A stretch of 58,449 nt of DNA, taken from Clostridiaceae bacterium (GTDB lineage Bacteria; Bacillota; Clostridia; DSM-8532). Under the pieces are notes generated by a model. That model had not been told where the DNA came from. It was given only the letters and a program-made list of their open reading frames with translations, and did no database searches. A program made the position numbers and the translations under genes. Of the stretch, positions 12,980 to 56,812 are shown piece after piece (the stretch's first letter is position 1; every line of letters starts with the position of its first letter). Where the stretch lies: contig JAAYTP010000052.1 in NCBI GenBank assembly GCA_012518025.1, positions 1-58,449 on the forward strand, read 5' to 3'.

Positions 12980-12985
12980 TATGTT

Positions 12986-13320
12986 TATCAGCGATGAAGG
13001 AGAAGGGATTTTCCCCGCTTTTCATGGGCTTCATCAGAAGAGAATTGATGCCGCAGGCTGGGAGCATCAAGGTGAAGAATGAAAAGTGAGTTCACTCCGA
13101 AGCTGCCGCTTGAACGCCAGAAGCCTGGATGTATAATAAGGGTGATGCCTAAAGGTTAACCTGGGGTGAAAGGCAAGTAGGAGCGGCCGGCAGCGACCGT
13201 TATCAGCGCAGAGTGCACTTTGACTTAATACTGCCTGGATTTGAACCGTATCTGGCTGTCAAAGTGAACATAGGTGGTACCGCGAAGACTTCGTCCTATG
13301 GACGGAGCTGTTTTTTTGTC
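12986..13320 (+). promoter_or_regulatory. T-box leader, specifier TTC (Phe)
   Basis: This tRNA-sensing leader allows read-through into pheST when tRNA-Phe is uncharged. Stem I opens at about 12995. The specifier TTC at 13091-13093 sits in the context GTGAG-TTC-ACTCC, matching the Phe codon and the downstream genes. The T-box consensus AGGTGGTACCGCG is at 13272-13284. Its TGGT bulge pairs with an ACCA tRNA end. The following CTTCGTCC/GGACGGAG hairpin and T-run form the terminator, and the T-box can pair instead to form the antiterminator. Confidence 0.93.
13289..13318 (+). terminator. T-box-controlled terminator
   Basis: CTTCGTCC, loop TAT and GGACGGAG are followed by CTGTTTTTTTG. It overlaps the antiterminator sequence of the Phe T-box. 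Confidence 0.88.
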
Positions 13321-18308: not shown

Positions 18309-18408
18309 CTGACATACCAGAGGCGGGAGGTTAGAGGAGGGATGTGAAAAGTGAGAAGTGAGATATCACGGGGCCAGGCAGGCGGCTGCCGACTCCCACT
18401 TCCAGTAT
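18309..18408. repeat. Purine-rich GTGAGAAGTGAGA stretch flanking the palindromic repeat
   Basis: The sequence contains GGGAGGTTAGAGGAGGG and GTGAAAAGTGAGAAGTGAGA. It resembles material just after the methyltransferase gene (5446) and uvrB (40198). No gene is seen. Confidence 0.4.
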
Positions 18409-18483
18409 GTCATTGCGAGGAGGCTTTGCCGACGAAGCAATCTCGAAGATCGCCGCACTCCGCTTCGCTTCGTTCGCGATGAC
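18409..18483. repeat. Dispersed imperfect palindromic repeat, copy A
   Basis: The element opens with GTCATTGCGAGGAGG and closes with TCGCGATGAC. Internal segments GACGAAGCAATCTCG and CTTCGCTTCG are typical of a REP-like family. Further copies lie at 40262 and 51239, always between genes. It can fold into a long hairpin. Confidence 0.8.
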
Positions 18484-18615
18484 AGTCTTGATGTGGGATG
18501 TGAATAAAATGAATATCATGGGATGTGTCCGCATATAATAAAGTCGGATTGGCTTGTCATTCTTACATACATGTCTTTACTGCATGAAAGCGTGGTATTG
18601 CCCGATAAAAAGGTG

Positions 18616-51191: not shown

Positions 51192-51238
51192 CTTTCAGGA
51201 ATCCCATAAAGCCCAGTCGCTGTGCTGCACAAAGAAGT

Positions 51239-51311
51239 GTCATTGCGAGCGGAACGCAGTGAAGCGCGGCAATCTCCGAAATTGCTTCGTCGCATTGCTC
51301 CTCGCAATAAC
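51239..51311. repeat. Dispersed imperfect palindromic repeat, copy C
   Basis: GTCATTGCGAGCGGAACGCAGTGAAGCGCGGCAATCTC is followed by GAAATTGCTTCGTCGC and GCTCCTCGCAATAACA. The arms are inverted copies, matching copies A and B. Confidence 0.8.
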
Positions 51312-51427
51312 ATACTTGAGGTGAGTGGTGACAGCCGCCCTTTTTCATTCTCGCAGAGAGTTTTAGGCGCCTTATCGCAATGTGCCCTAGTTTTACGTGA
51401 TCCCTTCTGCCTGATCTGTTATTTATA

Positions 51428-52370: not shown

Positions 52371-52886
52371 ATGGATTGGCCGAGAAATGACCTTATCCTC
52401 ATCGCTTCGGCCGATAGAAACTGGGGGATAGGGTTTAAAAACAAGTTGTTAAAAAGAATACCTGAGGATTTGAAGCGCTTTTCCCAACTGACCAGGGGCA
52501 ATATGATAGTGGTGGGGCGCAAGACGCTGGAATCCTTCAAGGATGCCAGGCCCCTTCCGGACAGGATCAACGTGGTACTGACACGGGATAAGAATTACCA
52601 GTGCCCGGGGGCAGTTGTGGTGCATAATCTTGAGGAACTGATGTCCACCATAGCCGACTTTAAAGGTGATGTTTATGTATGCGGCGGGGAATCGGTCTAC
52701 CGGCTGCTTCTGGACTATTGTTCCCAGGCTCTGATTACCCGAATTGACGCGGCATTTGAAGCTGATACCCACCTTCCTGATTTTGACAGGGAAAGCCAGT
52801 GGGTCAGGGAGGAAGCAGGCGGGTGGCAGGAGAGCAAGGTTGGAGTAGCATTCCGGTATGACACTTACAGGAGGTGCGAAGGGTGA
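52371..52886 (+). CDS. folA: Dihydrofolate reductase
   Basis: DHFR regenerates tetrahydrofolate used by ThyA. The sequence shows ILIASADRNWGIGFKNKLL at the substrate loop (W and G conserved), PEDLKRFSQLTRGNMIVVGRKTLESF and the NADPH motif VYVCGGESVYRLLL. It has 171 residues. GGGAGG precedes the ATG. It is transcribed with thyA, an expected pair. Its stop overlaps the next start as GTGA. Confidence 0.95.
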   Translation: MDWPRNDLILIASADRNWGIGFKNKLLKRIPEDLKRFSQLTRGNMIVVGRKTLESFKDARPLPDRINVVLTRDKNYQCPGAVVVHNLEELMSTIADFKGDVYVCGGESVYRLLLDYCSQALITRIDAAFEADTHLPDFDRESQWVREEAGGWQESKVGVAFRYDTYRRCEG

Positions 52887-53491
52887 AGGAATCAGGCATT
52901 CCATGGTCTATAGTGGTGGTTGGCTTCGTTATATTCTGGCCTTTAGGGCTTCTGCTCCTTATCCTGAAGGTGCGTTCCGATCTAAAGGCTACCATGGTTG
53001 CATCAGGGATTCTTAAGGTGCTGGCATGGATACTTATTGCATTGATTGGCGCATTTCTTACGGCAGCGCTTTTTGAAGCAGGTTTCAGAGTGAACAGTGT
53101 TGTAGCTGGATTTCTAGTCCTGATGTCCGGTGCCCTTGCCCTTTTGGCAGCCGCTGTTTTTATAAAAAAGAATGCCAATGTTTACAGGCGGTTTATCAGC
53201 ATAATCGTCAACGACGGGGTTTCCAGCATAGATGAAATCAGCAGGCTTACGAGAATCCCATACGAAAAGGTGCGTCAGTATCTGGAGCGGATGATCAGCC
53301 GTAATTTCCTTCCAAACGCGCGCATCAGCGAAGTGAATCGTACTGTTGTGGTGCCCCGACCCGGGGTGGAACATGACCCTGAGCTGGAATATGATATAGT
53401 ATCCTGCAAGAATTGCGGAGCGAATAAAGAAGTGGCTGTGGGCAGGATCGAAGCCTGCAACTTTTGCGGATCCAAACTGAAAGCCGGATAA
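52883..53491 (+). CDS. Membrane protein with winged-helix-like and zinc-ribbon domains, unknown function
   Basis: I do not recognise this as a named family with a known role. Two or three hydrophobic segments lie in the first 100 residues (SIVVVGFVIFWPLGLLLLIL, VLAWILIALIGAFL and a third to about 97). The middle (about 100-150) looks like a winged-helix or PCI-type fold (SSIDEISRLTRIPYEKVRQYLERMISRNFL). The C-terminus has a zinc ribbon with CKNCG and CNFCG. The GTG at 52883 has GGAGGTG six bases upstream and overlaps the folA stop. It is the last gene of the thyA-folA operon. Confidence 0.6.
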   Translation: MKESGIPWSIVVVGFVIFWPLGLLLLILKVRSDLKATMVASGILKVLAWILIALIGAFLTAALFEAGFRVNSVVAGFLVLMSGALALLAAAVFIKKNANVYRRFISIIVNDGVSSIDEISRLTRIPYEKVRQYLERMISRNFLPNARISEVNRTVVVPRPGVEHDPELEYDIVSCKNCGANKEVAVGRIEACNFCGSKLKAG

Positions 53492-53495
53492 ACCC

Positions 53496-53525
53496 TTGAC
53501 AGACTTTGCGGTAATGGTCTATATT
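53496..53525 (+). promoter_or_regulatory. Sigma-A promoter of the Val T-box operon
   Basis: TTGACA and TATATT are separated by 18 bases, just after the zinc-ribbon gene. Confidence 0.85.
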
Positions 53526-53531
53526 CATTAA

Positions 53532-53800
53532 TAAACAAATAGTTGGCGATGACGAAGAGGAGTAGGCAATAACGCCCTAAAGAGAGGATGTGCATTTGGT
53601 GCAAGCACTTCCGGGAAAGTGTTGCTGAAGGTCGCTTCCGAGCCTGGCGGTTGAACCGGCAGCAGCTATTGAAGGCGCTGGCAAAGTAGATCGCATCGGG
53701 TAGGAACCGTTAAATTCCTGTTAAAGGGCCCGTTAAAGGGAACTTTGGTGGTACCGCGGAAAATGCTTTCGTCCAAAGATATGGATGGAAGTTTTTTTTA
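53532..53800 (+). promoter_or_regulatory. T-box leader, specifier GTC (Val)
   Basis: The leader has a Stem I with the specifier GTC at 53631-53633 in the context GAAG-GTC-GCTTCC. The T-box consensus AACTTTGGTGGTACCGCGG is at 53741-53759. The terminator CTTTCGTCC/GGATGGAAG with eight Ts ends near 53800. Val is the amino acid of the nearby valS, so the leader matches it. A membrane protein gene lies between. Confidence 0.93.
53765..53800 (+). terminator. T-box-controlled terminator of the valS operon
   Basis: CTTTCGTCC and GGATGGAAG pair with two wobbles and are followed by eight Ts. Confidence 0.88.
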
Positions 53801-53848
53801 TGGATTTGTAACCCCTGGTGATGCAGATTCCGGTGATATGGAGGGAAT

Positions 53849-54091
53849 ATGACTGTATTGAAGATAGCAGCGATCCTGCTGATAGTGACGGGCGCCGTTA
53901 TTAACTATGGCGCGGGATATATTGTTAAGCGCCTTGCCCTGAGCCAGCGCGTCGCTGTGAAGGAGGCTCATGAGTTTACTGGTGAGGCTCTTGAAGAATA
54001 CAAGCGGATGAAGGCACTTTCCATGGTCAAACTGGTAGGTTTGTTCACCTTGATACCGGGTGTGGTGCTTATCTTTATAGCCTTTAAATAG
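53849..54091 (+). CDS. Small membrane protein between the Val T-box and valS, unknown
   Basis: This 80-residue protein has two hydrophobic helices at about 4-26 and 60-79 around a charged middle (AHEFTGEALEEYKRMKALSM). GGAGGG lies three bases before the ATG. I recognise no family. It follows the T-box terminator by 49 bases and precedes valS by 69, with no terminator or clear promoter between, so the T-box should control both genes. Confidence 0.7.
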   Translation: MTVLKIAAILLIVTGAVINYGAGYIVKRLALSQRVAVKEAHEFTGEALEEYKRMKALSMVKLVGLFTLIPGVVLIFIAFK

Positions 54092-54160
54092 TCTGTCGCC
54101 AGATAGAACCTGTTAATTATAAATACATCTTGCGCACTTTAGCATGAAAGGGTTGGGAAT

Positions 54161-56812
54161 ATGCGTTTAGACAATATTGAAAAGACTTACGATCCCTCAA
54201 AGGTAGAGGAGAAGATTTATCACAGATGGATGGAGAAGGACTATTTTCACACCGAGGTTGACCGGGAAAAGGAGCCCTTCTGTATTGTGATACCCCCACC
54301 GAATATTACAGGTCAGCTCCATATGGGGCACGCCCTGAACAATACCCTGCAGGATATTCTCACCCGGTTCAGGAGAATGCAGGGATATAATGCCCTGTGG
54401 CTTCCCGGTACGGATCATGCCAGCATTGCTACCGAGGTAAAGATTGTTGAAAAGATGGCTGAAGAGGGTCTTACCAAGGAAGATGTAGGCCGTGAGGAAT
54501 TCCTGAAAAGAGCCTGGGAGTGGAAGAAGCAATACGGCGGGCGTATTGTGGAGCAGCTTAAGAAGCTGGGAAGTTCCTGCGACTGGAAGCGGGAGCGTTT
54601 TACCATGGATGAAGGCTTGTCCAGGGCTGTGCTGGAGGTTTTTGTAAGGCTCTATGAAAAAGGCCTGATCTACAGAGGAGAAAGGATTATCAACTGGTGT
54701 CCCTGCTGCGGTACCTCCATATCGGACGCCGAGGTGGAATATGAGGAAAAGGAAGGCAGCTTCTGGCATATCAAGTACCCCGTAACCGGTACTGATGCAT
54801 ATCTGGAGGTAGCCACAACGCGTCCCGAGACCATGCTGGGGGATACTGCGGTGGCAGTCCACCCTGAGGATGAGCGCTATAAGGATTTCATAGGGAAAAC
54901 CGTAACACTGCCTCTGATGAACCGTGAGATACCCATCATTGCCGACGATTATGTTGAGCGGGAATTCGGCACCGGTGTGGTTAAGATAACTCCTGCCCAT
55001 GACCCCAATGACTTTGAGATAGGTCTCAGGCATGACCTTGAAATGATCAATGTCATGAACCCTGACGCCACCATTAATGAAAATGGTGGAAAATACGCCG
55101 GTCTTGACCGCTATGAAGCCAGAAAACAGGTTGTCAGAGATCTGGAAGAGCTTGGACTTCTTGTTAAGATTAAGCCCCACCATCATAACGTGGGTTCCTG
55201 TTACCGCTGCAATACCGTTATTGAGCCAAGAGTAAGCCATCAGTGGTTCGTGAAGATGAAACCCCTTGCTGAGCCGGCCATTGAGGCGGTGAGGAACGGC
55301 ACCATTAAATTTGTGCCTGAGCGCTTCTCAAAGATCTATTTCAACTGGATGGAAAATATACAGGATTGGTGTATTTCAAGGCAGCTATGGTGGGGTCACA
55401 GGATTCCTGCCTATTATTGCGATGACTGCGGACATATCACCGTATCCAGGGAGGCTCCGGAAAAATGTCAGAAATGCGGATCCGCCAGAATCCGTCAGGA
55501 TGAGGATGTTCTTGATACCTGGTTCAGCTCGGCTCTGTGGCCGTTCTCAACACTGGGATGGCCGGAAAAAACCGCTGATCTGGAGCATTTCTATCCTACC
55601 AGCGTTTTGGTAACCGCTTATGATATCATTTTCTTCTGGGTGGCCAGGATGATCTTCTCAGGTTTGGAGCAGATGGGGAAGGAACCCTTCAGCCATGTCG
55701 TTATCCATGGCCTGGTTCGGGATGCCCAGGGCAGGAAGATGTCCAAATCCCTTGGGAACGGGATCGATCCACTTGATGTTATAGAGAAGTATGGTACCGA
55801 TGCCTTAAGGTATGCCCTAACCATCGGAACTTCTCCCGGTAATGACTTGCGCTTCTCTGACGAAAAGCTGGAGGCCAGCCGAAATTTTGCCAATAAGATC
55901 TGGAACGCCTTCCGCTTTGTCATGATGAATTTTGATGAGGATATAGATTTCTCAAAGGTTGATCCGGGCAGGTTTACCTCCGCTGATAAGTGGATCCTGA
56001 GCCGAATCAATACAGTTGCCCGGGAAGTCACCGAGAATCTGGAACGCTTTGAGATTGGCATCGCTTTGCATAAGATCTACGAATTCATATGGGATGAATT
56101 CTGCGACTGGTATATTGAGTTGGTGAAGCCACGTCTGTATGATCAGGAGGCACCGGGTCGGATTGAAGCCCTCTATGTACTGAATGAGATACTGAAAAAT
56201 GCCATGAAGCTTCTTCACCCGTTCATGCCGTTCATTACAGAAGAGATCTATGGCCATCTCATCACATCAGATGAGAGTATTATGATCTCCGAATGGCCAG
56301 AGTACCGGGAAGGGGTTCTGTATCCTGAAGAGGAGCGGGTTATGAAGGTTATCATGGATGCCATCCGCGGTATACGCAACAGGCGGCTGGAGATGAATGT
56401 TCCTGCCAGCAGGCGGGCAAAAGCCATATTTGTTACCTCCGATCCCGATCTGGCTTCGGCTGTTGACAGGGAAGCTCCCACGTTTAAACGGCTTGCCTCC
56501 ATTTCCGATGCGGTGGTCAGAAAGGATAAGTCAGGTATCGCCGATGATGCGGTGGCTGTTGTGGTGGAAGGAATGGAGGTTTTCCTGCCCCTTGAAGAGC
56601 TGATTGACATGGAGAAGGAAATCGAACGACTGGAAAAGGAAAAGGCCAACCTTGAGATGGAATTGGATCGTGTGGAGAAAAAACTGAGCAATGCCGGTTT
56701 CGTCGCCAAGGCTCCCAAGGCTGTTGTGGAAGCCGAGAAGGAGAAGGAGGCCAAGTACCGCGACATGTACCGCAAGGTCATTGAAAGGCTTGAAACCATA
56801 AAAGGAAAATAG
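54161..56812 (+). CDS. valS: Valyl-tRNA synthetase
   Basis: ValRS charges tRNA-Val and edits mischarged Thr. The class I catalytic core has HIGH as HMGH at 54-57 and KMSKS at 526-530. The CP1 editing domain lies between (about 190-345, with [17 protein letters not shown]). A helical anticodon-binding domain follows, and a C-terminal coiled coil (about 815-880) completes it. A zinc-finger-like CDDCG...CQKCG is near residue 430. It has 883 residues. It starts with ATG at 54161 after the small membrane protein gene and is under Val T-box control. Confidence 0.97.

Follow-up and report, generated by a model that had tools for sequence, protein, structure and literature searches.

Why should a gene for a small membrane protein be placed between a valine T-box and valS, the gene for the soluble enzyme valyl-tRNA synthetase (ValRS)? 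The question is raised by a 58,449-nucleotide stretch of DNA, here called the window, which is the contig JAAYTP010000052.1 of a Clostridiaceae bacterium (assembly GCA_012518025.1). An 80-residue two-helix membrane protein, referred to below as the valS-linked hairpin protein, is encoded there directly ahead of valS, and an earlier note on this DNA took it for a transport accessory or sensor wired to valine starvation.

The valine T-box leader and the two genes behind it

The locus lies on the forward strand, where the tail of a 205-aa ORF is followed by a promoter-like site, the T-box, its terminator, the 80-codon ORF, and valS. The promoter-like site is of the sigma-70 type (TTGACA-18-TATATT, 53,496–53,525), agrees with the consensus at 11 of 12 positions, and stands directly before the T-box. 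The T-box leader (53,540–53,779) matches the Rfam covariance model RF00230 over its full length, model positions 1–219, with 107 bits against a curated gathering score of 93 and an E-value of 1.1e-22. Its specifier codon in the Rfam alignment is GUC (53,631–53,633, context ...CUGAAG-GUC-GC...), and because ten relatives carry GUC or GUA, that is, always valine, at the same alignment position, the frame in which the specifier is read and its assignment to valine are both fixed. The T-box bulge UGGU together with ACCGCG (53,749–53,758), recognized from the sequence and the Rfam alignment, is predicted to pair with the acceptor end of the tRNA and forms the core of an antiterminator. This antiterminator competes with an intrinsic terminator (53,765–53,799), as is characteristic of a T-box; the terminator consists of an 11-bp stem at 53,765–53,792 followed by a run of eight T residues up to 53,799, and its folding energy of -13.8 kcal/mol (z = -4.6) is equaled by no shuffled sequence. 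Judged from its sequence, the natural reading of this leader is control by uncharged tRNA-Val.

The hairpin gene (53,849–54,091) is preceded by the Shine–Dalgarno sequence GGAGGG and encodes a two-helix membrane protein according to both hydropathy and AlphaFold2, while valS (54,161–56,812) encodes a ValRS of 883 aa recognized by PF00133, PF08264, PF10458, and TIGR00422. The succession of a T-box with the specifier GTC, an 80-residue two-helix protein, and valS, as the earlier note had described it, is therefore confirmed in every part. The same note had claimed that no terminator separates the two genes and had named an isolating terminator or promoter as the objection to look for; no terminator-like or promoter-like site is seen between 53,800 and 54,160, and the 69-nt gap between the hairpin ORF and valS folds no better than its shuffles. 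The hairpin gene and valS are probably co-transcribed as one transcription unit.

Within the genus, where the proteins are 75–99% identical, the dN/dS of the hairpin gene is 0.08–0.25, and G15, A56, G64, K61, P70, and G71 are conserved residues. The ORF is beyond chance because of this dN/dS and because relatives occupy the corresponding position in dozens of genera, and by these comparative criteria it is a real gene under purifying selection.

Other features of the surroundings are recorded here as separate observations. In the 205-aa ORF (52,874–53,491), hydrophobic segments at the N-terminus are combined with a weak match of winged-helix type and, at the C-terminus, a Cys4 motif resembling a zinc ribbon; among the loci compared, the ORF is shared by no genome beyond the nearest relatives, G000, G001, and G004. 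A dispersed intergenic repeat, TCATTGCGAGCGGAACGCAGTGAAGC..., is present at 51,220–51,330 and 18,397–18,484, with about 55 matches in the 2.0-Mb genome. A second T-box, sub-threshold at 73 bits (12,985–13,301), precedes a pheS-like ORF in the window.

The hairpin family and its predicted fold

The gene is not confined to this locus, as the dozens of genera mentioned above show, so the other objection named in the earlier note, occurrence at this one place, does not apply either. Relatives were found by the first search in 27 of 61 related genomes, and by the profile search in a long form in 61 and a short form, of about 60 aa, in 92 of 392 genomes of the class, nearly always in single copy. 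The long and short profiles are linked to each other by profile–profile comparison with 98.2% probability, and further links reach the f5/f48/f60 group (97.5%), the f11 group (97.4%), and the f56 group (96.6%). ATP synthase subunit c, an unrelated protein with two transmembrane (TM) helices, scores 0.1% against both profiles, which indicates that hydrophobicity alone does not produce the links among subgroups. Outside the class Clostridia, no convincing member was found in phylum-wide sets of 299 and 249 genomes.

The statement of the earlier note that no family is recognised holds in searches of Pfam, NCBIfam, and the PDB. In Pfam-A and NCBIfam, the window protein matches nothing above cut-off, the best being Pox_I5 at 22.8 bits against a cut-off of 25, and the best E-values of its relatives against the family libraries are 7e-5 (Pox_I5) for the long form and 1e-3 for the short form. 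The matches to Pox_I5, Trp_oprn_chp, and Na+/H+ antiporter subunit G are weak and hydrophobic and were dismissed. PHROGs gives no credible match, and the PDB gives no significant match in sequence (best hmmsearch E-value 0.27) or fold (best Foldseek E-value 3.7). In the literature searched, no paper described a small clostridial protein encoded ahead of valS.

AlphaFold2, given 43 relatives, predicts the long form as a confident helical hairpin with a pLDDT of 93.4. In the window protein, the predicted helices comprise residues 2–20, approximately the first TM segment, then after a break a short helix at 22–28, a loop, and a long helix at 45–78 that contains the second TM segment. The short form is predicted with helices at 2–17, 19–25, and 34–58 and a pLDDT of 87.9, and the models suggest that one fold is common to both forms. 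In all 67 members of 67, the lysine and arginine residues of the interhelix loop exceed those of both termini; by the positive-inside rule, this concentration predicts a cytoplasmic loop with both ends outside. The loop itself is strongly variable between the long and short forms.

Linkage to valS and independence of the T-box

The neighborhoods around the profile matches were retrieved and valS was located in each. Of the distinct profile matches, 121 had enough flanking sequence for their position to be assessed. In 106 of these, valS follows immediately on the same strand, across a gap with a median of 23 nt, and in some short-form genomes the two ORFs overlap, with gaps down to -23 nt. Many matches with E-values near 1e-4 also adjoin valS, which argues that these weak matches are true relatives. 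The largest upstream ORFs of 116 hairpin loci fall into 65 sequence clusters; the upstream neighbors are thus shuffled while the hairpin–valS pair is kept, so the linkage is more than conserved synteny, and synteny without function was rejected on this ground. When a membrane protein is the conserved, dedicated neighbor of one soluble enzyme, the simplest reading is a physical partnership between the two.

The exceptions that lie away from valS belong mainly to the f56 clade, the odd genome L020, and the f43 genomes (L073/L074). In the f56 clade (L131–L133, L136, L139, L142, and L148), which has left valS, the loop carries the motif FGFGDQNEA in strongly conserved form, and at one of its loci (L133) the hairpin gene precedes a pilin-like gene. 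A similar motif occurs in L251, a relative of G093, which still adjoins valS. In L073 (G213, f43), a short-form hairpin gene stands directly before a gene for a dusB-like tRNA-dihydrouridine synthase instead of valS.

These few relatives, before a pilin-like gene or a dusB-like gene, are what speaks for the most durable of the rival explanations, in which the hairpin protein is a general small membrane protein without a functional tie to ValRS that owes its place in the valS operon to the constant expression available there. Expression hitch-hiking should accept other partners, yet 106 of the 121 matches are at valS, and the linkage is kept across 28 families while other neighbors turn over. 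We consider such a passenger unlikely, although it deserves to be taken seriously.

A rival of lower probability assigns the effect to the act of translation rather than to the protein, either through translational coupling to valS or because co-translational insertion brings the polycistronic mRNA to the membrane and ValRS is then synthesized there. Such insertion is generally expected of small membrane ORFs, and the position almost always immediately 5' of valS, with overlap or near-contact in some short-form genomes, would suit a regulatory upstream ORF. The low dN/dS and the conserved residues speak against it, as does the separate start of valS in the window, 69 nt beyond the hairpin ORF. 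The hairpin ORF has valine at 10 of its 80 codons, using all four GTN codons, and contains no valine run that would hint at attenuation. Leader-peptide attenuation was rejected because such a run is missing and because the conserved sequence points to a protein. An upstream ORF of this kind is therefore improbable, and the partnership with ValRS remains the preferred reading.

The linkage was also approached from valS itself. With TIGR00422, valS was located in 146 nearly complete genomes of the class; the upstream region could be read in 137 of them, and an ORF of 45–135 aa with two hydrophobic segments ending within 320 nt of valS was sought. Such an ORF is present in 57 of the 137 genomes and in 28 of 58 families, a count based on hydropathy windows, which may include a few unrelated hairpins; some of the 57, for example L247, are beyond the reach of any profile and may be of that kind. 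The background of small two-TM ORFs was controlled with ileS and with the other T-boxes of this genome. The same test before ileS gives 0 of 30 (p = 9e-7 against valS). The genome has 13 other T-boxes, and a small two-helix protein is the first ORF after none of the nine that are readable.

By a rough motif scan, the 137 genomes comprise 28 with both gene and T-box motif, 29 with the gene only, 47 with the T-box motif only, and 33 with neither, and the two are independent (Fisher p = 0.30). As a check on the scan, 18 motif-negative loci were searched with Rfam at an E-value of 0.01. Three proved to have a T-box; the other fifteen, twelve of them adjoining valS, gave no match. To the question of the earlier note, whether the gene always sits between a valine T-box and valS, the answer is divided: many relatives are so placed, but 29 of the 57 gene-bearing genomes lack the T-box motif and 47 genomes have the motif without the gene. 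Since the T-box and the hairpin gene are independent, the conserved partner is valS and not the T-box. The T-box is a lineage-specific switch over the hairpin–valS pair and not a defining feature of the gene, and the view that wiring to valine starvation defines the protein is not borne out. Taken together, the comparisons show a class-wide family of small membrane proteins, absent from current annotation libraries, that is tied to valS independently of the T-box.

The same counts weigh on the proposal of the earlier note, in which a membrane sensor or transporter accessory, induced through the T-box by valine starvation, would alter the uptake or export of branched-chain amino acids. The valine T-box of the window and the T-box motif in 28 of the 57 gene-bearing genomes are in its favor. 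Against it stand the 29 gene-bearing genomes without the motif and the independence of the two features, together with the nine readable other T-boxes of this genome, which precede no such ORF. The proposal also gains no specific support from the neighborhood, where no transporter gene adjoins and the one constant partner is ValRS. We regard it as quite improbable.

A possible membrane partner of ValRS

The explanation that we prefer, tentatively and at somewhat short of an even chance, is that the hairpin protein is a dedicated membrane partner or tether of ValRS, and that the pair is read through when tRNA-Val is uncharged; contact, tethering, a membrane location of ValRS, and any effect on charging are inferred. 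The promoter, valine T-box, hairpin gene, and valS would form one unit with readthrough on uncharged tRNA-Val. The hairpin protein would have its N-terminus outside, its charged loop in the cytoplasm, and its C-terminus outside, and the cytoplasmic loop and the start of the second helix may bind ValRS, or ValRS with tRNA-Val. Part of the ValRS could in this way be held, or adjusted, on the cytoplasmic side of the membrane.

A precedent for such a task exists in cyanobacteria. Aminoacyl-tRNA synthetases bound to membranes have been presented as a peculiarity of that group, with ValRS as the best-documented one (PMC4893482). The only synthetase found at membranes in Anabaena is ValRS, which is held there by a CAAD domain with two TM helices, and upon loss of CAAD the enzyme is soluble but still active (PMC4893482). 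The clostridial protein resembles the CAAD/Curt1/CURT1 module (PF14159) in its size and in its two TM helices, as judged from hydropathy and the AlphaFold2 hairpin. In contrast to the CAAD of Anabaena PCC 7120, which is fused to ValRS, it is a separate ORF 5' of valS, and its layout differs, with a predicted topology that places a long loop in the cytoplasm. PF14159 matches neither the window protein nor its relatives nor anything in this genome, whereas a Synechococcus control is positive. Membership of the hairpin protein in the CAAD family was rejected for want of a PF14159 match and a fusion and on account of the different layout. Its job would be comparable to that of CAAD, performed as a separate subunit.

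For the partnership speak the linkage to valS, the retention of the pair without a T-box, the single predicted fold, the profile links among the subgroups, the predicted cytoplasmic loop, the purifying selection, and the Anabaena precedent. Against it speak the relatives away from valS and several further points. A fusion of ValRS with the hairpin would have argued for contact, and none is found in the 42 clostridial ValRS ORFs examined; about half of the families sampled are without the hairpin gene, so ValRS in general does not need it; and the variability of the loop between the forms is unexpected for a tight binding surface. A membrane modulator that influences ValRS activity or editing but does not tether the enzyme stably, for instance one that releases or blocks it according to membrane state, would draw on the same linkage evidence as a tether, but nothing positive separates it from one, and we consider it very unlikely.

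The tether reading can be extended to the class as a whole: Clostridia may possess widespread, unnamed, stand-alone two-helix tethers of ValRS that are convergent with CAAD and have in some lineages come under a tRNA-Val T-box, a generalization that we advance more hesitantly still. If the hairpin protein is a partner of ValRS, this would suggest that the placement of this enzyme at the membrane arose twice, and the question of why valine is singled out would become testable in genetically tractable anaerobes. At the least, a broadly conserved, unannotated small-protein family with a precise predicted partner is at hand.

Valine T-boxes are also known with other genes directly behind them. For Clostridioides difficile, valS itself is given as the gene that follows the valine T-box (PMC11477304); the leader of the window is likewise a complete RF00230 element with valine specifier, antiterminator, and terminator, but its first gene encodes the hairpin protein. 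In Streptococcus, spr0489 and str0474 are listed behind valine T-boxes as 'Val-tRNA ligase related hypothetical' (Wels et al. 2008, PMC2494555, Table 2). Compared by description only, they share with the hairpin gene the status of a hypothetical gene under a valine T-box that the authors related to Val-tRNA ligase, but they belong to Bacilli, whereas in the phylum-wide genomes searched the hairpin family is found convincingly only in the class Clostridia; in Streptococcus, too, a small gene could have been placed before valS, independently of the clostridial one. Finally, second, shorter ValRS-like genes of about 800 aa occur beside the normal one in several Clostridia (G002:C44, G046:C63, G063:C25, G076:C47, G129:C456, and G151:C35).
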